DNA of 64,000 nucleotides from positions 1 to 64,000 of the forward strand of contig CAIVEW010000004.1 in assembly GCA_903905065.1 (NCBI GenBank), written 5' to 3'. Made by a program: the position numbers and the translations under genes. Under the pieces are notes generated by a model. The model did no database searches and was not told where the DNA came from. It worked only from the letters and a program-made list of their open reading frames with translations. Source of the stretch: an uncultured Bacteroidota bacterium. Its GTDB lineage: Bacteria; Bacteroidota; Bacteroidia; Chitinophagales; Chitinophagaceae. Below are positions 6,675-20,771 of the stretch, one piece after another. Positions within the stretch are counted from its first letter, which is position 1. Each line of letters starts with the position of its first letter.

Positions 6675-8123
6675 TTATTTTTTACCAGATTTTTGTTTAG
6701 CTATTTTTTCCAGCATATCCACCAGGCCCACTATCGTAGTGTGGTCTATCCTTTTCCCCTTTATTATTTTCTTTTCGTCCAGCAAATATATAGTAGGCGT
6801 ACTATAAACATCATATTTTCCTCTCCAGTCTCCCGCATGGTCTGGGTCCCAGGTGTTGGTCCATTCTCCCAGCTTGTTCTTGGTAATGAAATCGTTGATG
6901 GCTTGTTCATTGCCTTCGGTCGCTACCGTAAATAGCTTTACACCCTTTTTCTTCAGTTCCGCCTTGTATACCGAGTCAAGTGCGGGCAACTCATGCTGGC
7001 AGTGCCCGCAGGTCGGTGAGTAAAACACCAGTAAGGTATACTTGCCATCCTGTCCCAGCAGGCTTTCTTCTTTTTTGGTTGCCAGGTTCGGCACTTTTAT
7101 TTCCGGGGCAAGGTTGCCGATCACATTGGGCGCTATCTTCATCGCGCGGTCTATGTATTTCTGCAGGTCATCATTGCTCAGCCAGAAAGCATCGCCCTTC
7201 ATGTAGTAGTTCTCCACCAGGTACACAAAGACCTCGTCCATGCCCATCACCTTGCTGTTCTCCACATTGCGGGTCAGCCACCAGAGTGTGTACTTGAATA
7301 TTTCCTTCGTCCCACGGGCCTTTTTCAGCAGGTAGTCCGCTTCCCGTTCCATGCTGTCGGGCCAGGGGAAAACAAGTTTGTTGAAATACTCGTCAAGCTT
7401 GGCGTCAAAGATCGGGGTATGTATAAGCCGGTCATCCTGGAAATTAAAGTCGTCCCAGTAGTGCGATTTATAAAAATTGTAAGCAAAATTGGAATCCTTC
7501 GTAACGCCATCGGCCAGGAAATGAGCGCCCTCGGGCACCTGTGGCACCTGCAGTGCATTGAATATAGTTGCAAGCAGTGTATGCGGGTATTTCGCAGCAT
7601 AATCGCGACGGTAATTGCTCAGTTCTTTTGAGCTTGCTGCTGCCTTGTTACGCACGGTAACGCTGTCATCCTTCGTTTTCGCAGCCTTATATTCCTTCTG
7701 TAGTTCTTGTTGATTGGCGCCGTACCCCTTCAGGAAAGACACATATTGCTGGAAGCGGTCATTTTCAGGTGAATTCTTAAAAGTTATGCCCTCCGGGAGT
7801 TTCTTGGTGTCAGCGGTAATAGAAAGGTCGTCCCCATTATTCAGCAGGAACTCGAAATACGTATTCCTGTCAGACAACAGCATCATATAAATACCACCCA
7901 CAAATGTGCTGTCCTTGGAATCAAATGTAGCTATTCCGTTCTTATCTATTTGAGCAGAATCGCGTTTGTATATGGTGGGCAGCGGTTTTCCGTAATAGTG
8001 TACCAGGTACACCATTGATTCCTTTACAGCAGGTATTTTTAAGTGGATATGGTACCCCTCGCGGGCAGAAGATAGGTTAGCCATGCCAAATAGCAACATG
8101 GCGATTATAATGATTCGGTTCAT
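6675..8123 (-). CDS. Exported thioredoxin-like protein with DUF4369/DUF5106-like regions (paralogue 1)
   Basis: 482 aa from the ATG at 8123; that Met begins a clean signal peptide (to about residue 21), while the longer in-frame start adds a hydrophilic leader. An N-terminal beta domain resembling DUF4369 (about 22-110) and a helical DUF5106-like middle (about 110-330) precede a C-terminal thioredoxin fold with CGHC at 372-375 and the cis-Pro segment STPTIYLL. Probably a periplasmic thiol-disulfide oxidoreductase. It is about two-thirds identical by eye to the gene at 19311-20771, and the two copies share promoter sequence. Operonic with the PPIase downstream. Confidence 0.85.
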   Translation of the reverse strand: MNRIIIIAMLLFGMANLSSAREGYHIHLKIPAVKESMVYLVHYYGKPLPTIYKRDSAQIDKNGIATFDSKDSTFVGGIYMMLLSDRNTYFEFLLNNGDDLSITADTKKLPEGITFKNSPENDRFQQYVSFLKGYGANQQELQKEYKAAKTKDDSVTVRNKAAASSKELSNYRRDYAAKYPHTLLATIFNALQVPQVPEGAHFLADGVTKDSNFAYNFYKSHYWDDFNFQDDRLIHTPIFDAKLDEYFNKLVFPWPDSMEREADYLLKKARGTKEIFKYTLWWLTRNVENSKVMGMDEVFVYLVENYYMKGDAFWLSNDDLQKYIDRAMKIAPNVIGNLAPEIKVPNLATKKEESLLGQDGKYTLLVFYSPTCGHCQHELPALDSVYKAELKKKGVKLFTVATEGNEQAINDFITKNKLGEWTNTWDPDHAGDWRGKYDVYSTPTIYLLDEKKIIKGKRIDHTTIVGLVDMLEKIAKQKSGKK

Positions 8124-8193
8124 TGTCGTTTCAGATAAGTCCCGGTTATCGGGATAAAGCTCCGCCACCGGTAGCAGCCGGAAGGGAGTGCGT

Positions 8194-8201
8194 CAAAAAT
8201 A
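8194..8201 (-). promoter_or_regulatory. Promoter -7 box (TATTTTTG) for paralogue 1
   Basis: Exact TAnnTTTG on the minus strand with a TTG 21 nt upstream (8223-8225). The surrounding 23 nt (8191-8213) recur with one mismatch before paralogue 2 (20841-20863), so the promoter was duplicated along with the gene. The rest of 8202-8471 holds no gene that I can support. Confidence 0.6.
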
Positions 8202-8471
8202 AAGCATAAATTCGATGAATCCCAATCCACGCCACCGGTTAATTTAGGTTATAACATTTTTTTTGCAAGTTTAACAGGCTTTATGGCGAAGTTCGGTCCA
8301 GGCAGCCATGCTGCTATTTTGCTTCAGTGGCTATAGCACAGTTCATCGCAGGATTTCTATCGGGCTTGCCTATGTAATGCACACATTCTTTCTCCATACA
8401 AAAAAAGGGTGTTTTTCCCGCATGAAATATCAAAAAATATTTCCCAATTTTATCTTCCTAAATCACTCAGT

Positions 8472-8672
8472 ATGAAATCTATAACCCGGAAACTAACCGA
8501 CCTTACGCACAGGGAGTACGAAATATACATGTGCCTTCGCAAGGGCATGAAATCGAAAGAGATCGCCTGCAAACTATTTATCTCAAAGAACACCGTAGAC
8601 ACACACCGCCGCAGGATACTGGCAAAACTGAGGAACAGTCAAGATCATACACTTTACCGAGCATTAATATAA
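8472..8672 (+). CDS. Stand-alone LuxR/GerE-type helix-turn-helix protein
   Basis: 66 aa from the ATG at 8472; an in-frame ATG at 8409 would add 21 residues without family resemblance. The whole protein is one GerE-type HTH: LTHREYEI (start of the domain), SKEIACKL, then SKNTVDTHRRRILAKL (recognition helix). There is no receiver, PAS or autoinducer domain, so it is either a truncated NarL/FixJ-type regulator or a small DNA-binding protein on its own. A 42-bp palindrome begins 19 nt after its stop, and the 662-aa gene follows; regulation of that gene is a plausible inference. Confidence 0.75.
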   Translation: MKSITRKLTDLTHREYEIYMCLRKGMKSKEIACKLFISKNTVDTHRRRILAKLRNSQDHTLYRALI

Positions 8673-8691
8673 ACGCTTTTCCGAATTAGGC

Positions 8692-8733
8692 AATACTCAC
8701 TTAATACTCATAAATGAGTATTAAGTGAGTATT
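8692..8733. repeat. Perfect 20-bp inverted repeat, four half-sites (operator or terminator)
   Basis: Arms 8692-8711 and 8714-8733 pair perfectly around two As. Inside, the octamer AATACTCA occurs twice directly and twice inverted, which looks like a tandem operator. The weak promoter box at 8754-8761 puts the right edge of the palindrome near the -33 region of the 662-aa gene. The plus strand has no T-run after it, so a terminator role for the LuxR-like gene is possible but less clear. Confidence 0.7.
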
Positions 8734-8753
8734 TAATGCGTGTCCCTGCCCGC

Positions 8754-8761
8754 TACTTTTA
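8754..8761 (+). promoter_or_regulatory. Possible promoter box (TACTTTTA) for the 662-aa gene
   Basis: One mismatch to TAnnTTTG, 35 nt before the ATG at 8797. No clear -33 TTG is present; the expected site overlaps the end of the palindrome at 8692-8733. Confidence 0.3.
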
Positions 8762-8796
8762 CGAAAGCAAAATGCTTAACCACAAAACATAAAACT

Positions 8797-10785
8797 ATGG
8801 CAGTTCCACCCTCACAGATCAATCAGCAGCTCGTTGACATTGCCGCTATGGAAGACGCATTCGAGCAGGCGTCATGCCAGCCCCAGGACCCTTTCGTCAA
8901 ATACCCCACCCCAGACACTGGTACTCCGCCGATGATTAATTTCAACATTCCGCAAACCACGGCATTTACCACCTATGGCAAGCTGGTGAAGTACATAGAC
9001 CCAACGTGGTTCAAGGACTTCACAAAGAAAGTACCTACTTACAATTTCTTCGATTATGTGAAAACCCTCACGCCCAATGCGGTGCAGCAATTGTTTAACC
9101 CCAATGTCGCCGCTGCACCTGCGGTGCTCGGGCAGTTTGTACCCTATGCTAGTGCACCTCATGCCGGTACAACTCTTGCAACTGCAGGTCACAACTATGC
9201 GGCAAATGCTGGGCCCAAAGTCAGTGCGTCCGCTATGCAGCCGCAAATGGTACAAGCCTTGCCGCAGCAGCTCACTTTTTCCCCCATCGCCAGCTTTGCA
9301 CAGCAGGGCATCAGGGGGCTCTACTCCCATCGTATTATGAATGGCGGCGCCATTGTACGGTATGTGGCGCAGCCGCCCGTGCCGGTGCCGCGCATCATGG
9401 TTATTGAGGAATACACCACGGCATCTTACCTGGGCGACTATGGCGCAGGCCGCGTAGTGAAAACATTCACATTGTTGCCGGGCGAAAAAACAACAATCTC
9501 CATACGCACCTACAAAGACCAGTCGGGTACCAGCAGCGCATCAGATAATATGCTGGACAGCTTCAGCGACAGCAGCGCTACCCAGCTGGACAACATGATG
9601 CAGCAGGAGACCGGCCTTTCCGACTCCAGTTCTGCCACCAAGGGCGGTAACGACACCAGCTACAATACCTATTCCGATTCTAAAAACTCCAGCAGTGCAT
9701 GGAATATAAGCGCTAAAATAAACATTGCCGATGTTGTGGACATTGGCGGCGGCTACGGCCAGTCTAAATCTGACACATCTACAACAGCGGGTGGTTTTGC
9801 CAATACCACCAACTACTCCAACTCCGCTACCCGCGCATCGAATATAAATACGCTCACCAGCGCCTTGGATAAAAGTGTGCAGGAGAGCAATGCCAACCGG
9901 CAGATAGATGTGAACCATACTACTACTAGCACGGCCGACAGCGGCGAGGAAGACGCTACCGTGCGCGAGATACAAAATGTGAACCTGAGCCGTGTGCTCA
10001 ACTTCACCTTCCGTCAGTTGCTGCAGCAGTACACCACTATCACCTATCTTTCCGGCCTCAAATTTGGCTACACAAATGGCTACCCCGAAACCGGGGCAAT
10101 TGTGGACCTAAGCGCCCTGCCAAACATGCTCACAGACATCATCATGCCCGGCAACGACCCTGTGAGCGGCAACCCCTATATAGACGAAGTCATGTGCCTG
10201 CTCCTGAAGCCCTATTGCAGTGTGCTCAATTTCAACGATGAGCCCAAGCAACTCATAGAGGCCATAACCAATACTATAGGCGGCTGCCTCACGCCATACC
10301 TGCCCAGTTGCACCACCGAAACAGAAACCATATGGCGCATAAAGAAAGGCCTCAAGGACTATTACCCCACTGAAGATGCAGCGAAATACACCGTGCCCGG
10401 CATTATACTCGATGTGCGCAACCAGACCCTGTACACCGATTCTCTCATAGGCGATGCACTCATGGGCGCAGGCGAAGCCCTCGACTGCTTCAACCAGAAA
10501 GCACAGGATGCCAGCACCATGGCCGATTACATACGCAACCTGCAGTCTATGCAGCGCCTCGAAGACAGCATACGTGTAGCCGCGAACGATGCATTGGTGA
10601 ATACACAGCAACTGGCTATGGGCGAGCAGCAGATGGATGTAACGACACAGAAGGAAGCAGTGATACAGGCCCTGATAGATGCCGGCGATGCTGTAACAAC
10701 TGCTACCCTCTACAAGAAAGTGTTCAGCGATTGCTGCGATGTGCCGCAAAACACCGACTGCGGCGGCGGCTGTGGCTGCTCTTAA
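8797..10785 (+). CDS. Unrecognised 662-aa Ser/Thr-rich protein with Cys-rich C-terminus
   Basis: The ATG at 8797 is preferred over an in-frame GTG at 8740. No signal peptide or membrane segment. The first 200 residues are Pro/Ala/Gln-rich; a conserved-looking beta segment follows with LLPGEKTTISIRTYK (about residue 230), then a long Ser/Thr/Asn/Asp-rich low-complexity stretch (about 245-400), an Ile/Glu-rich boundary (VREIQNVNLSRVLNF), a globular region with YTTITYL, and a helical C-terminal part. The protein ends in CCDV then CGGGCGCS, five cysteines in the last 18 residues. The long polar stretch suggests a stalk or coiled assembly; the Cys tail suggests metal binding, cross-linking or modification. 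Function unknown. It is GC-rich like the core genome and is followed by a repeat-rich 187-nt gap and the 634-aa gene on the same strand. Confidence 0.8.
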   Translation: MAVPPSQINQQLVDIAAMEDAFEQASCQPQDPFVKYPTPDTGTPPMINFNIPQTTAFTTYGKLVKYIDPTWFKDFTKKVPTYNFFDYVKTLTPNAVQQLFNPNVAAAPAVLGQFVPYASAPHAGTTLATAGHNYAANAGPKVSASAMQPQMVQALPQQLTFSPIASFAQQGIRGLYSHRIMNGGAIVRYVAQPPVPVPRIMVIEEYTTASYLGDYGAGRVVKTFTLLPGEKTTISIRTYKDQSGTSSASDNMLDSFSDSSATQLDNMMQQETGLSDSSSATKGGNDTSYNTYSDSKNSSSAWNISAKINIADVVDIGGGYGQSKSDTSTTAGGFANTTNYSNSATRASNINTLTSALDKSVQESNANRQIDVNHTTTSTADSGEEDATVREIQNVNLSRVLNFTFRQLLQQYTTITYLSGLKFGYTNGYPETGAIVDLSALPNMLTDIIMPGNDPVSGNPYIDEVMCLLLKPYCSVLNFNDEPKQLIEAITNTIGGCLTPYLPSCTTETETIWRIKKGLKDYYPTEDAAKYTVPGIILDVRNQTLYTDSLIGDALMGAGEALDCFNQKAQDASTMADYIRNLQSMQRLEDSIRVAANDALVNTQQLAMGEQQMDVTTQKEAVIQALIDAGDAVTTATLYKKVFSDCCDVPQNTDCGGGCGCS

Positions 10786-10808
10786 ATGAAAATGATTTCT
10801 CCACCTCA

Positions 10809-10827
10809 CCCTCCCCTTTGGGGAGGG
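10809..10827. repeat. Intergenic REP-like hairpin (CCCTCCCC/GGGGAGGG)
   Basis: Perfect 8-bp stem with a 3-nt loop, inside a C-rich then G-rich block (10801-10840). Related CCTCACC...GGTGAGG-type blocks occur at 17100-17122, 27061-27101 and 28652-28706. Its position after a stop codon could also allow termination, but no T-run follows. Confidence 0.55.
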
Positions 10828-10972
10828 CTGGGGGAGAGGTCAGCTATGTAACTCATTCTACTTCACCCTCACCTCACGTTTTGTCATCGTGAGCTGTCAC
10901 AGTGAGCGAAGCCGAACTGCGAACGAGGGCCGGGATGAGGCTATTTTTTACTAACTTTAACTGCTGCTTTTT

Positions 10973-12877
10973 ATGGCCGACGATACATACTACGACGACT
11001 CCGGCGACTCTGGCGGCCCTTCTTCAGGTGGGCCCTCCGGCGGCGGCGGCAATGCTGCCAATTACTACGGCATTCGCAGCGGCTCGGGCTATGGCGGCGA
11101 CGACAGGCCTGGCACGGATACCAGCACCGATGGTGGCAGCGCCGGCGGCTACGCGGACGTTTCTGGAACGGAGAATAATGCCGACGGCAGTGGCTCCGGA
11201 GACGGAGCGTTCTGGGGTGGAGATAATGGAGCCCCTGACCTGGGCAGCGGCAGCAATGCCAGCAACAACCCCTACAACTATGGCAACGAAAACTTCAATC
11301 CCTTCAATAATCCTTTTGGGCCGCAAAACACCGGTGGCCCGGCTAATGTAGCGCCGCCCTCTGCGCCTGCGCCGCAAGGCTTTTACAATCCCGTTACCGG
11401 TAAGGGGCTGGTAGCCCCGCCCAGCGCGCCACCACAGATAGCGGCATACAACCCGGTCACCAACAAGCGGCCCGTGCTGGGTGGCGGCCCTGCCGCCATG
11501 TCTTCTTTCTCCGCGCCAAAGTCGCAGCAGGCGAACACACAGCCCACTAACCAAAACCAGGATAGCAACAGCGGTGGTGATGATACCTGCTACGACCTCG
11601 TGTTTCAGTGCGATGGCCCGGGGCCGCACTACGAAGGCTGGCTTATATTTTACGACAACAAAAGCAGTGAAAAAGAGGTAGCCCGCTTCCAGGCATATGC
11701 CGGCAGCGATGACCCCGAATACTGGGGCCCGCCGGTGGGTACCAACTTCACCCTTACCAGTTACATATCCCCGGCGCTGGGTTACAGTTCCGGCGGTGTG
11801 AGCTTTAAAGTGAACCTGGACCCATCGAAGCTCAAAGACCCTAATGGTAATACCTCTGGCCCGTTCTTTATCTTCCCGCTCAGCAATGGCACTACCACCA
11901 GGGGCGCTATCGGAATAAAGGGCGGCACCAGCGAGCTAAGGAAGGCGCAAACCCTGCTGAAAGCCGCAGCCAAATGCCATGCAACACTGCACATAGGTGG
12001 GTATAACCAGAATACGGGCGGGTATCCGCCGCCGCCACCGGAAAAAAATGACGAGCCAGTTGATGTAACGCGTAAGCGTGATGTAGTAGAAAGTGTGCCG
12101 TATATACCAGTTCAGCTGTTTCCCACTAACCCCGGTGAACCGCCGCCTGCACGACCGATACCAGTACCGCAGATTCCTAAAAATCCTGTTGTTGATAAAA
12201 AGGCGGTAACTGATAAAAGTAAAGTGGTACCTAAAAAGAAGGAACCAAGCCTCCCTAAAATTGATTATACCGGTCCAGTTCGAGCGGGCATAACGACTAA
12301 CCCTACGCCAACAGGATCGACATTCGATCCTCAAAAAGCGGCGGAATGGGTAGCCAAAATGATAGATATATTAAGGACCCTTCTGGGCAAAAAGAGTGAA
12401 GCTGCGGAGAAGGTCAATAAAATTTTGGACGCTACAAAATTATTGTTAGAATTGTTGGCTTTACAGGATTTGCTTAAAAAAATGCAGGAAGCAAAAACCA
12501 AGGAAGAAAAACAAAAAAGTGCCAGGGAGTATAGTGAAAAGAAATTAGAGCTTGACGCCGATCTAATAAAAACGGCGGCTGAAATTGCGGCTGCCGATGA
12601 AATGCTTGCTCTGGAAATGTTAGATGCTATTGATGACTTTATGCTAGATACAGATATTGAGTGGCTCAATAGTCGGATACAAGCGTTAACAGAAGCTATG
12701 AACAATGCAAATAATGATAGGACAAGAAGAGAGTTATATGAAAAATTAGGGGAAATGTATGCGAAAAGAAACGAAATTTTACGAAAAATGGGATTACTTA
12801 GTCCTAGCCCATCAAGTTCGCCGACAATGAATGACTTGGACAAAAAGAGAAAATTGTACCCCTATTATCAACGCTAG
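10973..12877 (+). CDS. Unrecognised 634-aa modular protein, polymorphic-toxin-like architecture
   Basis: No signal peptide. Residues 1-130 are Gly/Ser/Asp/Asn low complexity. Two Pro-rich repeats carrying YNPVTxK lie near 137 and 158. A globular domain (about 203-345) begins CYDLVFQC. A Pro/Lys linker (about 350-440) leads into an almost wholly helical, Lys/Glu/Leu-rich C-terminal region (about 455-634). By eye the first 1,070 nt are GC-rich like the neighbours while 12040-12877 is clearly AT-rich, as if the 3' end came from elsewhere. The next gene, an exported 157-aa protein, starts 5 nt after the stop. A variable C-terminus plus adjacent small exported protein resembles a toxin-immunity pair; there is no recognised secretion module or toxin domain, so this is inference. 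Confidence 0.75.
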   Translation: MADDTYYDDSGDSGGPSSGGPSGGGGNAANYYGIRSGSGYGGDDRPGTDTSTDGGSAGGYADVSGTENNADGSGSGDGAFWGGDNGAPDLGSGSNASNNPYNYGNENFNPFNNPFGPQNTGGPANVAPPSAPAPQGFYNPVTGKGLVAPPSAPPQIAAYNPVTNKRPVLGGGPAAMSSFSAPKSQQANTQPTNQNQDSNSGGDDTCYDLVFQCDGPGPHYEGWLIFYDNKSSEKEVARFQAYAGSDDPEYWGPPVGTNFTLTSYISPALGYSSGGVSFKVNLDPSKLKDPNGNTSGPFFIFPLSNGTTTRGAIGIKGGTSELRKAQTLLKAAAKCHATLHIGGYNQNTGGYPPPPPEKNDEPVDVTRKRDVVESVPYIPVQLFPTNPGEPPPARPIPVPQIPKNPVVDKKAVTDKSKVVPKKKEPSLPKIDYTGPVRAGITTNPTPTGSTFDPQKAAEWVAKMIDILRTLLGKKSEAAEKVNKILDATKLLLELLALQDLLKKMQEAKTKEEKQKSAREYSEKKLELDADLIKTAAEIAAADEMLALEMLDAIDDFMLDTDIEWLNSRIQALTEAMNNANNDRTRRELYEKLGEMYAKRNEILRKMGLLSPSPSSSPTMNDLDKKRKLYPYYQR

Positions 12878-12882
12878 CTTAA

Positions 12883-13356
12883 ATGAAAAAAAATAGGTTA
12901 AAAATAGTATTTGTGTTTACGGCGTCTGTTTTCTTCATTCCATTTGTGATGTGCGGAAATAATAAACAGAACCCACACAATAAGCATGCATTGTCAGATA
13001 CGATATTATACGCGGGTACTTGTCGAAGTTTGGCTATTCCCTTTGGAGTGGACACAACTTTTCTTGATACTATAAAATGCGCAAAAGTTGGCAATGATTC
13101 TATATTGTTTTTGATTAATGATTTGTTTTATCGTTTTACAGATAGTACCAAACACTTTTATGTACATGATTGCAAATTTGCTGTAAATGACTCAGGGATA
13201 TATAAGTTGGACTTTTCGAAGAAAAATGACATAGGTATTTATCGTTTCCACATTCTGAAAAATGACAGTGCGTTTTTTTACAGAGAACAAGCATTCTCCG
13301 GAATGGATTTCATAAGTGGAGCAGCAGGTAAAAAAATACCTTTTGTTAAGCAGTAA
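12883..13356 (+). CDS. Exported small protein, possible immunity protein (copy 1)
   Basis: 157 aa with an N-terminal signal peptide (about 1-24, ending near VMCG; possible lipobox-like Cys). The mature part shares with the next gene the segments FGVDTTF, DSILF, DSTKHFY, VNDSG and the FRFH / YRFH strand. No known family. It starts 5 nt after the 634-aa gene, so translation is probably coupled. AT-rich, unlike the upstream 5' end. Export would place it in the periplasm, as expected for an immunity protein against a periplasm- or membrane-acting toxin. Confidence 0.75.
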   Translation: MKKNRLKIVFVFTASVFFIPFVMCGNNKQNPHNKHALSDTILYAGTCRSLAIPFGVDTTFLDTIKCAKVGNDSILFLINDLFYRFTDSTKHFYVHDCKFAVNDSGIYKLDFSKKNDIGIYRFHILKNDSAFFYREQAFSGMDFISGAAGKKIPFVKQ

Positions 13357-13412: not shown

Positions 13413-13913
13413 ATGAGAAAACATAGATTGAAAATAGCGATTGGGATTTTGTTTTTGCTTGTAAAATCATTTGTTATGTGTGAAAGCGGATACGTTCCGC
13501 ATACTACTAATAACAAAACCGCACAAACGAATAAGGTAGTTTATTCTGGGGTATTGGATACAGTATCATACACAGGAAAATGTAAAAGTATGGCATATCC
13601 TTTTGGCATAGATACTACGTTCCCTGATACCGTACGATATGTAAGAGTAACTAAAGACTCAATATTATTTATGGTTAATGATTTGTATTTTGACTTTACG
13701 GATAGCACAAAGCATTTTTATATGCATAAGTACAAATTTTCTTTAAACGATTCTGGCGTATACCAGTGGGATTTTTCGAATAAAGATGATATTGCTGTTT
13801 TTCGGTTTCATGTTTTTAATTATGACAGCATTTATTATTATAGAGAAGAGACATTCTCAAAAAGAATGCAATTTAATAGTGACATTTTAGCCAAAAACAT
13901 AGCTGGAAAATGA
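13413..13913 (+). CDS. Exported small protein, paralogue of the preceding gene (copy 2)
   Basis: 166 aa with a signal peptide (about 1-23). About half identical by eye to the 157-aa protein over the mature region: FGIDTTF, DSILFMVNDLY, TDSTKHFYMH and the VFRFHV strand align. It carries about 15 extra residues after the signal peptide. Tandem duplication of a putative immunity gene, with 56 nt between copies. The 3' end is followed by a REP-like block. Confidence 0.75.
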   Translation: MRKHRLKIAIGILFLLVKSFVMCESGYVPHTTNNKTAQTNKVVYSGVLDTVSYTGKCKSMAYPFGIDTTFPDTVRYVRVTKDSILFMVNDLYFDFTDSTKHFYMHKYKFSLNDSGVYQWDFSNKDDIAVFRFHVFNYDSIYYYREETFSKRMQFNSDILAKNIAGK

Positions 13914-14119: not shown

Positions 14120-14890
14120 ATGAATGTGCTATATTCATTTATTACTTTCAGTTTAGTATTTGTAGGGGTTAAGTGTACTGCAAAGCAAATTCATACCGTG
14201 AAAAAAAGCTTTTACTCAAATGGACATTTAAAAAGTGAAATAAGTTTCCTTAATGGGAAGGTTAAAGACGGAGAAGCAATTTATTATGATATTCAGGGAA
14301 GTATCATTAAACGAGAATATTACAAAAATGACAAAAATGATAGTGCAATTATAATATATTACCCGAATGGAACTGTGGAAAAGAATATATCTTTTTTTCA
14401 GTCTTATCCTATTTCATATTACGAATATTATACCAATAAAAATATAAAAAGATATTCAGCTTCTGATTTTGTACATCAGTTATTTTACCAAATAAATTAT
14501 GATTCATTATCAGGAGAAAAAAAATCAGAAAAAGGCTTAGCGATTAGTAAAAATTATGGGGTAAAGCATGGTTTTAAAAAAAAATATCGCACAGGAGATA
14601 GTCTAATTTTGATTTTTCTGATTCCACAGCCTCCTAACTATGATTCGCGTGCCTTAGTCGGAATTTATAAAATTAACGAATTATCAGATACCGCTGTCTT
14701 TTGTAAAACTGTAAACAAAGAAACTATTGAACCGTTTAAAGAATATAACGTACAGCATTCAGCAGTTCCCTATTACAGAATTTTTAGTGAAAAAGGAGTT
14801 TATCAAGTCATTTGTATTGGCGAAATAATTGATAGGGCAACCTCGTATAAGAAAAGTGATACTATTGCCAATATATGGAAAATTGAATAA
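14120..14890 (+). CDS. MORN-variant repeat protein, YwqK-like (possible immunity/antitoxin)
   Basis: 256 aa with an N-terminal signal peptide or anchor (to about residue 20). Residues 25-115 hold repeats of the MORN_2 type: SNGHLKSE, NGKVKDGEAIYYD, YPNGTVEKN, the pattern seen in YwqK-family proteins that often sit beside polymorphic toxins. The C-terminal half is beta-rich and unassigned. AT-rich gene bounded on both sides by REP-like blocks, which suggests it arrived or survived as an isolated cassette. Confidence 0.7.
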   Translation: MNVLYSFITFSLVFVGVKCTAKQIHTVKKSFYSNGHLKSEISFLNGKVKDGEAIYYDIQGSIIKREYYKNDKNDSAIIIYYPNGTVEKNISFFQSYPISYYEYYTNKNIKRYSASDFVHQLFYQINYDSLSGEKKSEKGLAISKNYGVKHGFKKKYRTGDSLILIFLIPQPPNYDSRALVGIYKINELSDTAVFCKTVNKETIEPFKEYNVQHSAVPYYRIFSEKGVYQVICIGEIIDRATSYKKSDTIANIWKIE

Positions 14891-15316: not shown

Positions 15317-15504
15317 AACGGGGGGCCGCACAGTTCTATATTAGGACGGCTCTAGATTATCTTAATAAATTAAGTAAAGAATTAAGGGAAGAATTTAAAA
15401 AATCAAGCCTATACCCAAAAATGCAGGATATCATCCAATACTATTTTGAAAAATATAAACTTACCGATGACGGCATAAAATATAAATTTTATTGGCAAAG
15501 ATGA
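15295..15504 (+). pseudogene. Severed C-terminal tail of a larger protein (toxin-like fragment)
   Basis: An open frame without its own start ends in TGA at 15502-15504. From about 15331 it encodes a coherent helical peptide: FYIRTALDYLNKLSKEL, then SSLYPKMQDIIQYYF and a final KYKFYWQR. The last codons overlap the next gene's start as ATGA (15501-15504), a typical translational coupling for toxin-immunity pairs. Upstream the frame is broken by an inverted REP unit. It looks like the last ~58 residues of a lost larger protein; the family is unknown. Confidence 0.5.
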
Positions 15505-16406
15505 AATACAAAATGAAAAATACTGCAAGGAACATGCATATGAAAGCATTCGTTCTAATTTCAATTTTCACTATGGCTAACAAAGCGATTTTTGCACAGA
15601 GTTTTTCGTGTAAGATTTATCAATACAGCCATTATGATAGTGTAAATGCGAAAATAATTGCCGAAAGCAAATTTCTGAATGAAAGAATTATTTATGAGCG
15701 TGATTTCGGATATAATGGTGACAGTTGCGATTTTATTGATTCAAAACGGTATAGTAAAAAAAAATATTACTCATATAAGGATACTTTTTTGACAAAAGAA
15801 ATAATTGTTTACGATCCAGATACTGACGTGCTTTTTTACAATTATAATAACAGTAAACTTTTGTATAAAGTCAAGCATACTTCCAATGATGATAAACGCT
15901 TGAAAAAATTTTACCAGGAGGATTACGAATATACTGGTAAGATGTTGTCTAAGCGGTCTGAGCATTATATTTCTGAAGATAATACTCACAATCCTCTCCA
16001 AACAAACTTTTATACCTATACTTCTTCGGGTAAAATGCAGCAAGATAGTGCGATCGGTTATACGCCCGCATCAGACTTTTCAGGATTGGAAAATCTCAGG
16101 ATAACGATAATCGGGGGAGTTAAATACGTCATGGTTGATTCATCTTTAACTAAATATAATTATTTTGAAGGTGGATATACTAGCGATTCACGTACTGCAT
16201 ATGCAAGGTCAATAGATTCTTTTTACTACTCCGAGAATAACTTATTGACAAAATATGTTAGTTATAATAACGGTTTAAAAAGAAGTGAAGAAAGTTATTA
16301 TTACAATGATAAAAATAAAATTAAAAAGAGTGAAGCTATTTCTTATAGCGACTATAGCGATGGTGTATTTAGCCGGCTCACGCGAATATATAAATACGGC
16401 AAATAA
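15501..16406 (+). CDS. Exported protein, possible immunity partner of the severed tail
   Basis: 301 aa from the ATG at 15501, which overlaps the TGA of the preceding fragment; a TTG three codons upstream is less likely. The N-terminus is a long signal peptide (hydrophobic about 17-30, cleavage near FAQ). The mature part is Tyr/Ser/Lys-rich with repeated SKR(Y/S)xxKKYYSY, YNNSKLLYK and YYNDKNKIKKSE segments, resembling RHS/wall-associated beta-repeat or MORN-like strands. No family assigned. AT-rich; followed by REP block D. Confidence 0.7.
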   Translation: MKYKMKNTARNMHMKAFVLISIFTMANKAIFAQSFSCKIYQYSHYDSVNAKIIAESKFLNERIIYERDFGYNGDSCDFIDSKRYSKKKYYSYKDTFLTKEIIVYDPDTDVLFYNYNNSKLLYKVKHTSNDDKRLKKFYQEDYEYTGKMLSKRSEHYISEDNTHNPLQTNFYTYTSSGKMQQDSAIGYTPASDFSGLENLRITIIGGVKYVMVDSSLTKYNYFEGGYTSDSRTAYARSIDSFYYSENNLLTKYVSYNNGLKRSEESYYYNDKNKIKKSEAISYSDYSDGVFSRLTRIYKYGK

Positions 16407-16752: not shown

Positions 16753-16998
16753 ATGGACACGATAAACTATGACACACACAACATACTGCTAAACGGGCAG
16801 CCATACCCGGTAAACGCTATACGGCCCATATACCCTACACTTACCGGAGATAATGCCGTATCGCTGCTCTACCCGTGGTGGGGCAATTGCTACCTCTGGC
16901 GCGGAGATGTCACCCGCCTCATCAATGGCGTCACCGGCCTGCCCTTCACCAGCCTCGCCGATTTCAAAACCTTCGTCAATGATCATTTTTATAGCTAG
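16753..16998 (+). CDS. Truncated tail-fibre-like N-terminal domain
   Basis: 81 aa, about 60% identical by eye to the first 82 residues of the 443-aa protein at 17252: HNILLNGQPYP, the IRPxYP segment, GDVTRL(I/V)NG and FKTFVNDHFY align without gaps. It stops at a TAG exactly where the longer protein passes from this domain to the next. Either a truncated duplicate or a deliberately free domain. No signal peptide. Confidence 0.6.
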   Translation: MDTINYDTHNILLNGQPYPVNAIRPIYPTLTGDNAVSLLYPWWGNCYLWRGDVTRLINGVTGLPFTSLADFKTFVNDHFYS

Positions 16999-17099
16999 CG
17001 TAGAAAGTCCAAAATCCAAACACCAAAATCCAAATTCCAAAGTAAAGAATAGATAATTCGGATTTTCCTGTTGCTCGCAGAGAAGCTGCGTGACACACT

Positions 17100-17122
17100 C
17101 CCCTCCTTTTTTCAAGGAGGGG
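17100..17122. repeat. REP-like hairpin (CCCCTCCTT/AAGGAGGGG)
   Basis: Perfect 9-bp stem with a 5-nt loop between the truncated and full tail-fibre-like genes. The gap (16999-17251) also has two stretches of CCAAAT/TTCCAA-type short repeats (17006-17042 and 17190-17248) and no gene. Confidence 0.55.
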
Positions 17123-17251
17123 ATGCCAGAAAGCATAGCGAAGCAGTGCTTCTGGCTGGGGTGGTCGGCCCGCGAACTGCACACAATACAACACAACAAC
17201 AATCCAAATTCCAACAAATTCCAAAACAACAAATTCCTAATTCCCAACCCC

Positions 17252-18583
17252 ATGGATACATTATTCTTCGACGACCACAACATCCTACTCAACGGGCAGC
17301 CATATCCGTTCAACTCTATTCGCCCCCGCTATCCCGCAGTCGCGGGCGACAATACCGGCATCCTCTGGTTTCCCTGGTGGACCACCAACGCCCTGTGGAG
17401 CGGCGATGTCACGCGGCTGGTGAATGGCCTCACTGGTGTGCCCTTCACCGGTATATCCGACTTCAAAGCGTTTGTCGATGCTCATTTTTATACCAGCGAT
17501 TTTTCCGGCGGCCTTGACTTTGTCGGCCTTTGGAATGCAAGCACCAACACGCCTTTTCTTACCAATGGTGTGGGCACATCAGGCCAGTTCTATGTCACCA
17601 CAGTTGGCGGCACGGTCGATTTTGGCGCCGGGAGCATCACCTTTACGCTGGGCGACTGGGTTATATACGATGGTGTCTATTGGGACAAGATCCCGTTTGC
17701 GTCTATACACACCCTGCAGCAGGTCACCGATGCGGGCAGCACCTCTACCCACAACCTGCAGATAGCCGGGCTGCTCGATCAGTCCACCGCTGCGGCAATA
17801 GTATTCAATACCAACGGCTTTACCGCCATGAAAGCCGGGACTGCCATCTTCGATTCCAACCTCAACCAGTCGAGCGATAACTCCGGCAATAAAAGCATAT
17901 CACCCAATTCCCGCGCACTATACGATAGCTCCGGTGCTGCAAAATATGCATGGGATACCAACCAGGCCAAAGACAGCTCCGGCACAATTTCCGCCGATCT
18001 GGATAACCGCCAGCTCTATTCCAGCGATGGGTCGTTGCGGGCCGACTATTCCACGCCCGGCCTGCTCATGGGCTACACCAAGATGATGGTAATGAATGCC
18101 GCAGGCCGCGGCAATGTGGAGCTCAACACAGAAGACAGCACCTATCCCAATATGAACGTTTATAACTATACTACTAATGTAGGCGTGGCGCTGCAATGTT
18201 CATCTGTGCCAACTATTGTTATTTATGATAATAGCGGCACGGACTATATTCTGCTGGAGTGTACCGGTCTGCCCGGTTCCGGTACGAATAATATTGATTT
18301 CCAGGCAGCCAGCGGCACGGTCGCGTTCCTGTCCGATATACCCGCTGTAGGCGGTGGTAGCTACTCTGCCACCGGCACTGCCGGGCAAACGGTGTACAAT
18401 ATACCCCATGGGCTGGCATTTACGCCCGCTTTTGCTGCCATCACCCCGCGCAATGCCGCTGCAGCAACCCTCATAGTAGGCAGCTACTATTTAAGTTATG
18501 ATGCCACAAACATAGTGCTCACCCTGCTTGTAGCCACCGCGGGCACCCCATCCATTCACTTCGACTGGGTAGCCCTTCCATAA
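17252..18583 (+). CDS. Phage tail-fibre-like (receptor-binding) protein
   Basis: 443 aa from the ATG at 17252, aligned with the start of the truncated copy; the longer in-frame start at 17090 runs through repeat DNA. Domain order: the conserved N-terminal domain (1-85); a GLWNAST...GxxGQFYVTTVGG...GDWVIYDG...W module (about 93-145) typical of phage tail fibres and collar proteins; Ser/Asp-rich repeats with SSGxxK(Y/A) (about 190-265); a GTVAFLSDIP segment (about 350) seen at the end of tail-fibre modules; and a C-terminal beta domain. No other phage gene is nearby, so it may be a domesticated adhesin or part of a tail-like device. No signal peptide. Confidence 0.65.
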   Translation: MDTLFFDDHNILLNGQPYPFNSIRPRYPAVAGDNTGILWFPWWTTNALWSGDVTRLVNGLTGVPFTGISDFKAFVDAHFYTSDFSGGLDFVGLWNASTNTPFLTNGVGTSGQFYVTTVGGTVDFGAGSITFTLGDWVIYDGVYWDKIPFASIHTLQQVTDAGSTSTHNLQIAGLLDQSTAAAIVFNTNGFTAMKAGTAIFDSNLNQSSDNSGNKSISPNSRALYDSSGAAKYAWDTNQAKDSSGTISADLDNRQLYSSDGSLRADYSTPGLLMGYTKMMVMNAAGRGNVELNTEDSTYPNMNVYNYTTNVGVALQCSSVPTIVIYDNSGTDYILLECTGLPGSGTNNIDFQAASGTVAFLSDIPAVGGGSYSATGTAGQTVYNIPHGLAFTPAFAAITPRNAAAATLIVGSYYLSYDATNIVLTLLVATAGTPSIHFDWVALP

Positions 18584-19310: not shown

Positions 19311-20771
19311 CTATTTCGATCCCGCGCCTTTTTCTTTGTCGGCTTTTTCTTTCTTTTCTATCATGTCTATCAGTCCGCCTATATTGCTGTGGTCAAGCCG
19401 CTTCCCCTTTATGATCTTCTTTTCATCCAGCAGGTAGATGGTTGGTGTGCTGTACACGTCAAATTTATTATGGTAGTCGCTGGTATGCTCGGGGTCCCAG
19501 GTATTTGTCCAGTCCTGCATATTGTACTTTTTAATGAAATCATTGATCGTCGTATCTGTGCCCTCAGTAGCAACAGTATATATTTTCAGGCCCTTAGCTT
19601 TCAGCGAAGCCTTATATGCAGAGTCCAGTTTGGGTATTTCGTGTTGGCAATGGCCGCAGGTTGGAGAGTAGAATACTACCAGCGTGTACTTTGCTTTGAG
19701 CGCGTGCATGCTCTCCTCTTTCTTAGTGGTCACATTCGGTAATTTCACTTCAGGCGAAAGGTTGCCTATTACGTTAGGTGCTATCTTCTGCGCGCGGTCT
19801 ATGAACTTGGAAAGTTCATCTGAGCTCAGCCAGAACGCATCGCCCTTCATGTAGTAGTTTTCCACCAGGTACACAAAGGTCTCGTCTATGCCCATTACTT
19901 TGCTGTCCTCTATGTACTTGGTTATCCACCACAGGGTGTAATGGAATACATCCTTTGTTCCCTTAGCCTTTTTCAGCAGCACATCGGCTTCTTTTTCCAG
20001 GCTGTCCGTCCAGGGAAGCACCAGCTTGCTGAAGTATTCTTCAAGCTTAGCGTCATAAAGTGGTGTGTATATCAGGCGGTCATCCTGGAAGTCAAAACCA
20101 TCCCAGAAATGCTTCTTATAATACCGGTAAGCAAACGTCGAATCCTTGGTCTTTCCGTCTTCCAGGAAGTGGTCCCCTTCGGGTACCTCAGGCGTTTCAA
20201 TGGCCTTGAATATCTTGGCAAGCAAAGTGCCCGGATATTTTGCTTCGTAATCACTTCTGTACTTATTGAGTTCTTTCGAAGAGGCTACAGCTCTTTTACG
20301 AATCGCGGCAGTATCATCTTTTGATTTGGCCTCGGCCAGTTCTTTTTTAAATTTCTCTTCCTTTGCACCATAGTCTTTCAGGTACTTTACATAGTCCTCA
20401 AAACGCGTATTCTCAGGCGAGTTAGAAAACTTCAGCCCATCTGGCAGGTCGTTGATCGGGGCAGTAATGGTCATATCGTCGCCCTTGTTCATCAGCACCT
20501 CGAAGTTCGTTTTATAATCTGATAAGAATAATATGTATATGCCGCCTACGAAATCAGGGTCGCTGCTTTTCAGGTCAGCTTCGCCGTTCTTGAAACGGGC
20601 AGAGTCGGTCTTGAATATTTTAGGCCTGTTTACACCATAATAGTGCGCCAGAAAAACCAAAGAATCTTTTACACCGGGCATTTTTAAATGGATATGATAC
20701 CCGTCCTTGCCAAAAGATTGATGGCCCATGATCATAAGCAATAATAATGCGATTAATTTCAGATGCTTCAT
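19311..20771 (-). CDS. Exported thioredoxin-like protein with DUF4369/DUF5106-like regions (paralogue 2)
   Basis: 486 aa, colinear with the gene at 6675-8123: signal peptide (to about 21), KDGYHIHLKMPGVKDS at the start of the DUF4369-like region, DUF5106-like helical middle, and CGHC at exactly the same residue position (372-375) with STPTIYLL after it. The Lys-rich C-terminal tail differs. Likely a periplasmic thiol-disulfide oxidoreductase. The two paralogues flank the 11-kb accessory island as direct repeats. Confidence 0.85.
   Translation of the reverse strand: MKHLKLIALLLLMIMGHQSFGKDGYHIHLKMPGVKDSLVFLAHYYGVNRPKIFKTDSARFKNGEADLKSSDPDFVGGIYILFLSDYKTNFEVLMNKGDDMTITAPINDLPDGLKFSNSPENTRFEDYVKYLKDYGAKEEKFKKELAEAKSKDDTAAIRKRAVASSKELNKYRSDYEAKYPGTLLAKIFKAIETPEVPEGDHFLEDGKTKDSTFAYRYYKKHFWDGFDFQDDRLIYTPLYDAKLEEYFSKLVLPWTDSLEKEADVLLKKAKGTKDVFHYTLWWITKYIEDSKVMGIDETFVYLVENYYMKGDAFWLSSDELSKFIDRAQKIAPNVIGNLSPEVKLPNVTTKKEESMHALKAKYTLVVFYSPTCGHCQHEIPKLDSAYKASLKAKGLKIYTVATEGTDTTINDFIKKYNMQDWTNTWDPEHTSDYHNKFDVYSTPTIYLLDEKKIIKGKRLDHSNIGGLIDMIEKKEKADKEKGAGSK

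Follow-up and report, generated by a model that had tools for sequence, protein, structure and literature searches.

Positions 8797-10785 of the window, which is the whole stretch of 64,000 nt analysed here from contig CAIVEW010000004.1 of an uncultured Chitinophagaceae bacterium, encode a 662-aa protein that, as judged from sequence comparisons, is a member of an unnamed bacterial family in seven phyla. Its gene, referred to as the lead gene, is very probably the lead gene of a polymorphic toxin-immunity locus. The whole is best explained, at a rough probability of 0.48, by a lead protein that acts as the conserved partner delivering exchangeable effectors (cargos) and is probably a beta-pore-former.

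Variable cargo and immunity-like genes at the lead gene loci

A profile built from 12 relatives detected 72 loci (numbered with the prefix L) in the genome collection; a single-sequence scan of the genome contigs had found no relative because the exact peptide patterns were too strict. In 60 of the 72 non-redundant loci a same-strand gene was located at most 450 nt downstream of the lead gene, and the identity of the downstream genes changed between loci. L074 and L085, none of whose open reading frames (ORFs) scored, were left out of the neighbourhood counts, and L085 was handled separately. Seventy hand-picked neighbour proteins from other loci (10 + 9 + 28 + 23), mostly encoded by first genes and in some cases by second to fourth or upstream genes, were scanned with Pfam, and at most 22 of them had any match at E ≤ 1e-3. 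The matched domains were Tae4 (L046, and as third gene in L027 and L053), Amidase_3 (L079 and one untraced member of neighbour set A2), M15 types (L048, L094), VanY (L087), GH25 (L104), M23 (L092), CHAP (L041, second gene), EndoU (L032, fourth gene), Ntox44 (L010), DUF6973 (L024), DUF6402 (L029), LysM (L031, L033), AbfB (L100) and the Hedgehog-type HH_signal (L086 and one more member of set A3, by similarity L091). Below the cut-off were an ADP-ribosyltransferase in L031 and YkuD in L050, while a Por_Secre_tail match in L048 was left unused, being below the cut-off and N-terminally located. Among the control genes from the same loci (24 picked from 47 drawn, scanned at E ≤ 1e-6 compared with 1e-3 for sets A2 and A3) no wall hydrolase or polymorphic-toxin domain occurred in the 25 of 34 families listed; one AAA model bears the description 'putative AbiEii toxin'.

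The Paenibacillus cargos with Hedgehog-type matches (L086:9208-9771 and L091:2174-2815) are made up for the most part of a Hedgehog N-terminal signalling domain in toxin-cargo position, PF01085 spanning residues 37-185 of the 188 residues in L086 (E 3.1e-50). The proteins encoded behind two Tae4 genes had no match among solved structures (best E values 0.41 and 0.84). Four alphaproteobacterial loci (L059, L071, L073, L078) have a possible partner gene on the upstream side, those of L071, L073 and L078 having no Pfam match over cut-off, and the cargo is upstream of the lead gene in L031/L095.

In the window, the genes following the lead gene are arranged as follows, all on the plus strand:

10973-12877, +: 634-aa variable cargo protein, proposed polymorphic toxin (no family; mosaic with L076 and L085)
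10973-12244, +: cargo N-terminal module, residues 1-424, with NP[FWY] at 99, 109 and 113 and the linker NPVVDKK at 404 (44% identity to the L076 cargo; motif positions)
12245-12877, +: cargo variable C-terminal domain, residues 425-634, looking helical by eye and proposed as the toxin domain (unaligned with the L076 cargo; common to the second L085 cargo)
12883-13356, +: 157-aa protein, N-terminus hydrophobic, proposed as immunity protein 1 (separated from the cargo gene by 5 nt; 47.9% identity with the 166-aa protein)
13413-13913, +: 166-aa paralogue, proposed as immunity protein 2 (88% identity with the protein after the matching L085 cargo)
14120-14890, +: 256-aa MORN-variant protein, possibly encoded by another immunity gene (PF07661 at E 8.9e-5, under the curated cut-off)
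15492-16406, +: 304-aa protein that looks secreted, possibly an orphan immunity protein (28% identical over 154 columns, E 2.6e-7, to the one after the L076 cargo)

The genes after the 634-aa gene form a row of small secreted-looking genes. The 634-aa protein resembles the L076 cargo in its N-terminal region (44% identity over window residues 108-424), and the L076 cargo in turn has part of its C-terminal region in common with that of L035 (31% over 133 columns). L085, a syntenic relative with about 82% nucleotide identity in the flank, carries at 8001-12655 two consecutive cassettes, each composed of a cargo and an immunity-like gene; nothing but the last 108 residues of its lead gene was found. 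The first cassette comprises a 492-aa cargo, with the same NFNPFNNPFGPQN motif as the window cargo and a JAB-like HTHP motif by eye, followed by a lipoprotein-like gene. The second comprises a 563-aa cargo 75% identical to that of the window and, behind it, a protein with 88% identity to the 166-aa one. In view of the mosaics with L076 and L085, the most fitting reading of the 634-aa protein is a cargo with a common N-terminal module and a variable C-terminus, for which no known family (Pfam, NCBIfam) and no plasmid match was detected. Exchangeable C-termini on a common N-terminus were also seen in the cargos of L046 (Tae4) and L051 (no family), which are 80% identical over their first 45 residues with no further match, and in those of L024, L035 and L041, which have only N-terminal parts in common, in addition to the pairs window/L076 and L076/L035 and the two L085 cargos. 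Co-occurrence of the two window genes, which the first-pass annotation had suggested looking for, is not conserved: homologues of the 662-aa protein were present in 6/195 genomes of the family, the own genome counted, whereas a draw of the same type gave homologues of the 634-aa protein in 1/195, the own genome. A 634-aa homologue stands beside a 662-aa homologue in L076, and another occurs in L085.

Statistics over Bacteroidota-type loci agree with a cargo-immunity order, the background ORFs stemming from a mechanical ORF call that includes spurious ones. The gene behind the cargo encoded a hydrophobic N-terminus in 28/38 cases compared with 124/337 background ORFs (Fisher p 1.7e-5), this feature was depleted in the first gene, the cargo (1/45, p 2.5e-7), and the gap between first and second gene was at most 20 nt in 33/38 loci compared with 79/203 same-strand pairs (p 2.9e-8). 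The second gene thus often appears to be of lipoprotein or secreted immunity type, with a predicted protective role. NP[FWY] was found within the first 30 residues of 17/60 first genes, which include some non-cargos, compared with 4/499 background ORFs, and anywhere within the first 200 residues in 23/62 compared with 21/499. The linker motif (6/62 compared with 7/499) is suggestive in Chitinophagaceae cargos and weak overall. The p-values for these motifs are optimistic, because the patterns were picked after viewing the same sequences.

This arrangement resembles the polymorphic toxin systems, as described by Zhang et al. 2012 (PMC3482391), in the common N-terminus, the exchangeable C-termini, the immunity-like gene directly behind and the extra immunity-like genes; toxin kinds in common are EndoU, Ntox44 (by name) and wall hydrolases. 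It differs in the separate, non-polymorphic lead protein in front, on which no known trafficking domain was found. Moreover, C-termini of known toxin kinds occur in part of the family only, within the 22 or fewer of 70 neighbours having any Pfam match, and the window C-terminus matches none of them.

Peptidoglycan hydrolase domains were present in 11 of the 21 Pfam-matched neighbours, two Hedgehog-type ones not counted. Such enzymes might alternatively constitute a release device that opens the producer's own wall for the lead protein, which would then be the actual weapon; type 10 secretion is a holin-endolysin-like wall opening of this kind. The scarcity of hydrophobic N-termini in lead proteins (0/43) and cargos (1/45) would be in line with such a role. 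However, the same N-terminal part is carried by unlike C-termini (L046/L051; L024, L035, L041), an EndoU nuclease, Ntox44 and a possible ADP-ribosyltransferase also occur among the neighbours, and the tight pairing with secreted-looking genes as well as the duplicated immunity-like genes fit cargo-immunity pairs. We therefore regard the release device as improbable.

Conserved core, Ser/Thr-rich insert and predicted fold of the lead protein

The lead ORF was confirmed as initially drawn, with 662 aa counted from the ATG: the close relatives in L024 and L025 begin at the aligned position. An in-frame GTG at 8740, upstream of this ATG, would yield 681 aa. The gene and its parts, all on the plus strand, are:

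8797-10785, +: gene of the 662-aa conserved lead protein, proposed beta-pore-forming delivery partner (ORF, homologue searches, alignments, structure model)
9349-10476, +: conserved core, residues 185-560, predicted mostly beta, including the family signature around LGDYGAGRVVKTFTLLPGE (alignments, AlphaFold2 (AF2) models of the window protein and of a relative, fold searches)
9514-9912, +: Ser/Thr-rich insert, residues 240-372, with two predicted helices (258-277, 342-367), proposed membrane-inserting loop (composition; amphipathic-beta test, window p 0.033; low-confidence part of the model)
10474-10680, +: long predicted C-terminal helix, residues 560-628 (AF2 model)
10732-10782, +: five-Cys tail, residues 646-662, mostly a Bacteroidota trait (Cys counts in homologues)

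As stated in the first-pass annotation, no family can be named for this protein. Pfam returned no family at E ≤ 1, NCBIfam a single meaningless row (7.8 bits compared with a cut-off of 650), PHROG one row of unknown function (E 0.011), and PDB sequences chance-level rows only (best E 0.45 with the single sequence, 0.09 with a 43-row profile). The TANFOR domain, whose model is presumably included in NCBIfam, was not among the Pfam/NCBIfam matches at E ≤ 1. A word search of the open-access literature, which is not sequence-based, found no paper on the family. Neither the sequence searches nor fold searches with the structure models gave a significant match to a characterised family.

The compositional features pointed out at first were confirmed in the window protein. 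Ser and Thr make up 31.4% of residues 245-400 compared with 14.0% elsewhere in the window protein, and the insert is a family trait, its Ser + Thr content exceeding that of the remainder in 54/54 aligned homologues. The segment LLPGEKTTISIRT, pointed out as conserved-looking, begins at residue 226 and is a conserved family signature. The five-Cys tail is present (Cys 646, 647, 655, 659, 661), yet it is no core feature: a CC pair occurs within the last 45 residues in 27/43 homologues, at least four Cys within the last 30 residues in 17/43, and a Cys-rich tail is missing in 12/14 rows from other named phyla, the exceptions being L060 and L065. This patchiness led us to reject the tail as a defining feature of the family. 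It appears from these counts to be mostly a Bacteroidota elaboration and possibly serves disulfides after release. No variable C-terminal toxin domain was found on the 662-aa protein itself, as the family is alignable to its C-terminal region and mainly the last residues vary.

Two AF2 models were used in fold searches. Model 1 represents the window protein (mean predicted local distance difference test (pLDDT) 68, predicted template modelling score (pTM) 0.60), and model 2, obtained from a 54-row alignment, residues 1-504 of the short relative L080 (mean pLDDT 78, pTM 0.75). With model 2, 44 of the 50 Foldseek rows listed were, according to our own labelling of row titles, on which all these toxin counts rest, beta-pore-forming toxins or proteins of the same fold (best E 3.5e-3); these included Cry35, Tpp80, aerolysin, BinAB, cytolysins, monalysin, Cry78, gamma-hemolysin, leukocidins, parasporin and others. 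The same was true for 32/35 VIA rows (best Z 4.3, root mean square deviation (rmsd) 6.8 Å, 128 aligned). With model 1, 23 of the 50 Foldseek rows listed were such toxins or same-fold proteins (best E 0.10), as were 14/36 VIA rows (best Z 4.8 for Tpp80Aa1, rmsd 5.0, 107 aligned). VIA matches for residues 558-630 (SPFH proteins, XRCC4) were discarded as reflecting the long helix only. From the models we put the odds of a beta-pore-former fold at about even.

PMC9558359 describes the aerolysin-type class by a five-stranded core sheet, a pre-stem loop and two adjacent beta-sheets. In the lead protein the insert lies between two core strands, which is tentatively taken as the place of the pre-stem loop. 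Compared with shuffled sequences, the insert was amphipathic as beta structure at p<0.05 in 18/54 homologues (median p 0.09, window 0.033) and as alpha structure in 0/54 (median p 0.75). Amphipathicity of the flanking helices was unconvincing (13/54 and 10/54 at p<0.05).

The lead protein might instead form no pore and act as a scaffold, adhesin or surface receptor-binder by which the cargo is displayed or held, delivery being accomplished by something else. This would have a precedent in the conserved, non-polymorphic mafA gene before a polymorphic toxin gene (PMC3482391). The locus L088 (Bacillota), whose protein carries a long pre-core insert like Ig-type repeats by eye, and the individual insignificance of the fold matches to solved structures also speak for it. 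On the other hand, a strongly hydrophobic N-terminus was detected by a simple test in 0/43 lead homologues, which leaves surface anchoring without an obvious route, beta-pore-forming toxins dominate both model 2 fold lists, and the insert shows a tendency towards beta-type amphipathicity. A scaffold of this kind is thus considered unlikely.

Proposed delivery mechanism and comparison with known systems

The anatomy of the locus is well supported by sequence; docking, pore, passage and release are steps that we infer. In the mechanism favoured here, the core of the lead protein would adopt an aerolysin/Toxin_10-like beta-pore-forming fold and the Ser/Thr-rich insert would be a pre-stem loop turning into a membrane beta-hairpin, with the long helix and the Cys tail possibly contributing to oligomerisation, cargo holding or cross-linking. 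The cargo would dock via its N-terminal region, through an NP[FWY] motif or in some cases FWKK or YWRKQ. Release of lead protein and cargo might come about by lysis, in the manner of crystal toxins and colicins, which is a guess. The released lead protein would bind the target envelope and then form or trigger a pore that lets the docked cargo pass to the periplasm or wall, lipoprotein immunity proteins guarding kin in the periplasm. In the window, the 634-aa protein would be the cargo and the 157-aa and 166-aa paralogues its immunity proteins. That the pore carries cargo across the target envelope is possible rather than probable. In its widest form, which we put forward tentatively, the proposal describes a machine-free two-component interbacterial weapon of diderms and monoderms, in which an aerolysin-fold pore-former turned general translocator would take exchangeable wall hydrolases and other effectors, recognised by a short aromatic N-terminal motif, through the envelope of a rival.

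Alternatively, the locus could be an accessory effector island of a type VI secretion system (T6SS), an extracellular contractile injection system (eCIS) or a type IX secretion system, with the lead protein as adaptor or carrier. Tae4 is by model name a T6SS effector family, LysM was found in two neighbours, TANFOR proteins of Bacteroidetes can have next-gene toxins (PMC7073777), and some family-bearing genomes do have a marker. Among 50 tested genomes with the lead family, however, the eCIS marker Pvc16_N was present in only 4 and the T6SS sheath protein VipB over cut-off in 2 (3/50 at E ≤ 0.001); absence is not certain for each genome because many of the 50 are draft metagenome-assembled genomes. 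The own genome had no match to VipB, Pvc16_N or a phage-type sheath, and members of the lead family occur in Bacillota and Actinomycetota. The rarity of the markers, each lacking in at least 46/50 genomes, and their absence from the own genome make T6SS and eCIS unlikely as general routes. Dependence on these two machines is thus not supported, and an accessory island of this type seems very improbable.

Two described arrangements come close to a lead gene followed by cargo and immunity genes. According to PMC3482391, Neisseria MafA is a Neisseria-restricted lipobox protein encoded immediately before the polymorphic MafB, which it is proposed to anchor. The likeness lies in the conserved gene immediately upstream of a polymorphic toxin gene; the lead family differs in lacking hydrophobic N-termini by the simple test (0/43) and in spanning seven phyla. 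In TANFOR polymorphic toxins of Bacteroidetes, as described in PMC7073777, the toxin is sometimes encoded in the gene directly downstream with immunity behind, and a Sec signal is predicted for about 87% of TANFOR proteins. The Bacteroidota setting, the next-gene toxin and the immunity gene behind it are thus alike, whereas lead homologues had hydrophobic N-termini in 0/43 cases by the same test. Neither MafA/MafB nor TANFOR loci were found to share the lead protein.

Aerolysin-fold pore-formers are known so far mainly as toxins against animal cells. The predicted long-stranded beta core of the lead protein is like that of the aerolysin/ETX-MTX2/Toxin_10 toxins, including the binary BinAB and Cry23/Cry37, as is the predicted position of its Ser/Thr-rich, partly amphipathic insert at the pre-stem. 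It differs from these toxins in giving no sequence match and insignificant individual fold scores, in possessing flanking helices, a long C-terminal helix and a Cys tail as extras, and in its partners (wall hydrolases and immunity-like genes), which point at bacteria.

Several observations weigh against a pore-forming delivery partner. No single fold match in the PDB was significant (Foldseek and VIA, both models), VIA Z-scores remained below the guide value of 8, and TM-scores were near 0.1. The top VIA rows of model 1 are coiled-coil proteins (Z up to 6.3), the pore-forming-toxin rows in the fold lists are redundant, and no Pfam/NCBIfam pore-forming-toxin model matched the 662-aa protein. 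In the amphipathicity test the homologues are related to each other, and 36/54 did not reach p<0.05. Twelve of the 72 non-redundant loci lack a same-strand gene in reach, four of them through a contig end, some first downstream genes look housekeeping-like by eye (L064, L070, L093, L101), and at least 48 of the 70 scanned neighbours as well as the 634-aa protein have no Pfam family at E ≤ 1e-3. Furthermore, aerolysin-type pores are narrow and would not let a folded cargo through. For EndoU, Ntox44 and ADP-ribosyltransferase-like domains access to the cytoplasm would be necessary, which a single outer-membrane pore leaves unexplained.

Spread of the family, surroundings of the locus and implications

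Eleven loci were dropped as duplicates and L011 and L034 as too distant. The 54 rows of the tree comprise 31 from Bacteroidota, 8 from Pseudomonadota, 7 from Bacillota, 2 from Actinomycetota, one each from Chloroflexota, Cyanobacteriota and Acidobacteriota, and 3 without group, including the window. The phylum labels change 10 times on this tree compared with a minimum of 6, which fits some transfer and is no proof of it. Occurrence is sporadic: besides the 6/195 in the draw from the family, lead homologues were found in 7/348 genomes drawn from the order (two weak, the own genome counted), and in a phylum-wide draw in 1/395, the own genome. No lead relative was found in viral contigs and phage records, so that a phage origin of the lead family is without support.

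A plasmid search returned two distant lead relatives, one of which (L010, Sinorhizobium) is located directly before an Ntox44 toxin gene. On this conjugative plasmid, pAK76, the relative and the Ntox44 gene are flanked by relaxase-type transfer genes on one side and a type IV secretion gene set on the other. The best viral fold match to the window model was a protein of Yasminevirus, which we take to be a giant virus (BFVD A0A5K0U6Q4, E 2.8e-7, probability 1.00); judged by this model comparison, it is perhaps a transferred family member.

Upstream of the lead gene, two further elements were located:

8409-8672, +: small LuxR-type helix-turn-helix (HTH) regulator gene, 87 aa from GTG (PF00196 GerE, E 4.5e-14)
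8692-8733, no strand: perfect palindrome with 20-nt arms and a 2-nt spacer, candidate operator or candidate terminator of the HTH gene (sequence read directly)

The earlier placement of the lead gene before the 634-aa gene and behind a regulator-like gene and a palindrome was thus borne out. The palindrome sits between the HTH gene and the lead gene, ends 63 nt before the ATG and was not among the terminators listed by a terminator scan. HTH- or response-regulator-looking genes also directly precede the lead gene in several relatives (L035, L042, L043; by eye).

The toxin island is situated between two similar minus-strand AhpC/TSA-thioredoxin-like genes at 6675-8168 and 19311-20771, which are a possible recombination boundary. 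The gene at 19311-20771 cross-matches the L085 copy of the gene at 6675-8168 (74% nucleotide identity, 553 bases). The region 16753-18583 encodes two proteins with similar starts (HNILLNGQPYP), similar ones being present in the syntenic L085, and the larger protein matches PHROG tail-protein families (E 1.8e-13).

Altogether, an unannotated family of seven phyla gains a concrete role, in which the lead protein may be the part that delivers toxins into rival bacteria. The lead gene provides a handle to toxin-immunity pairs missed by domain searches, which can be traced by inspecting its neighbours. If the pore-former reading is true, it would supply an entry route for wall-targeting effectors without signal peptide in bacteria in which no T6SS or eCIS is found, and bacterial competition would gain a general route of delivery.

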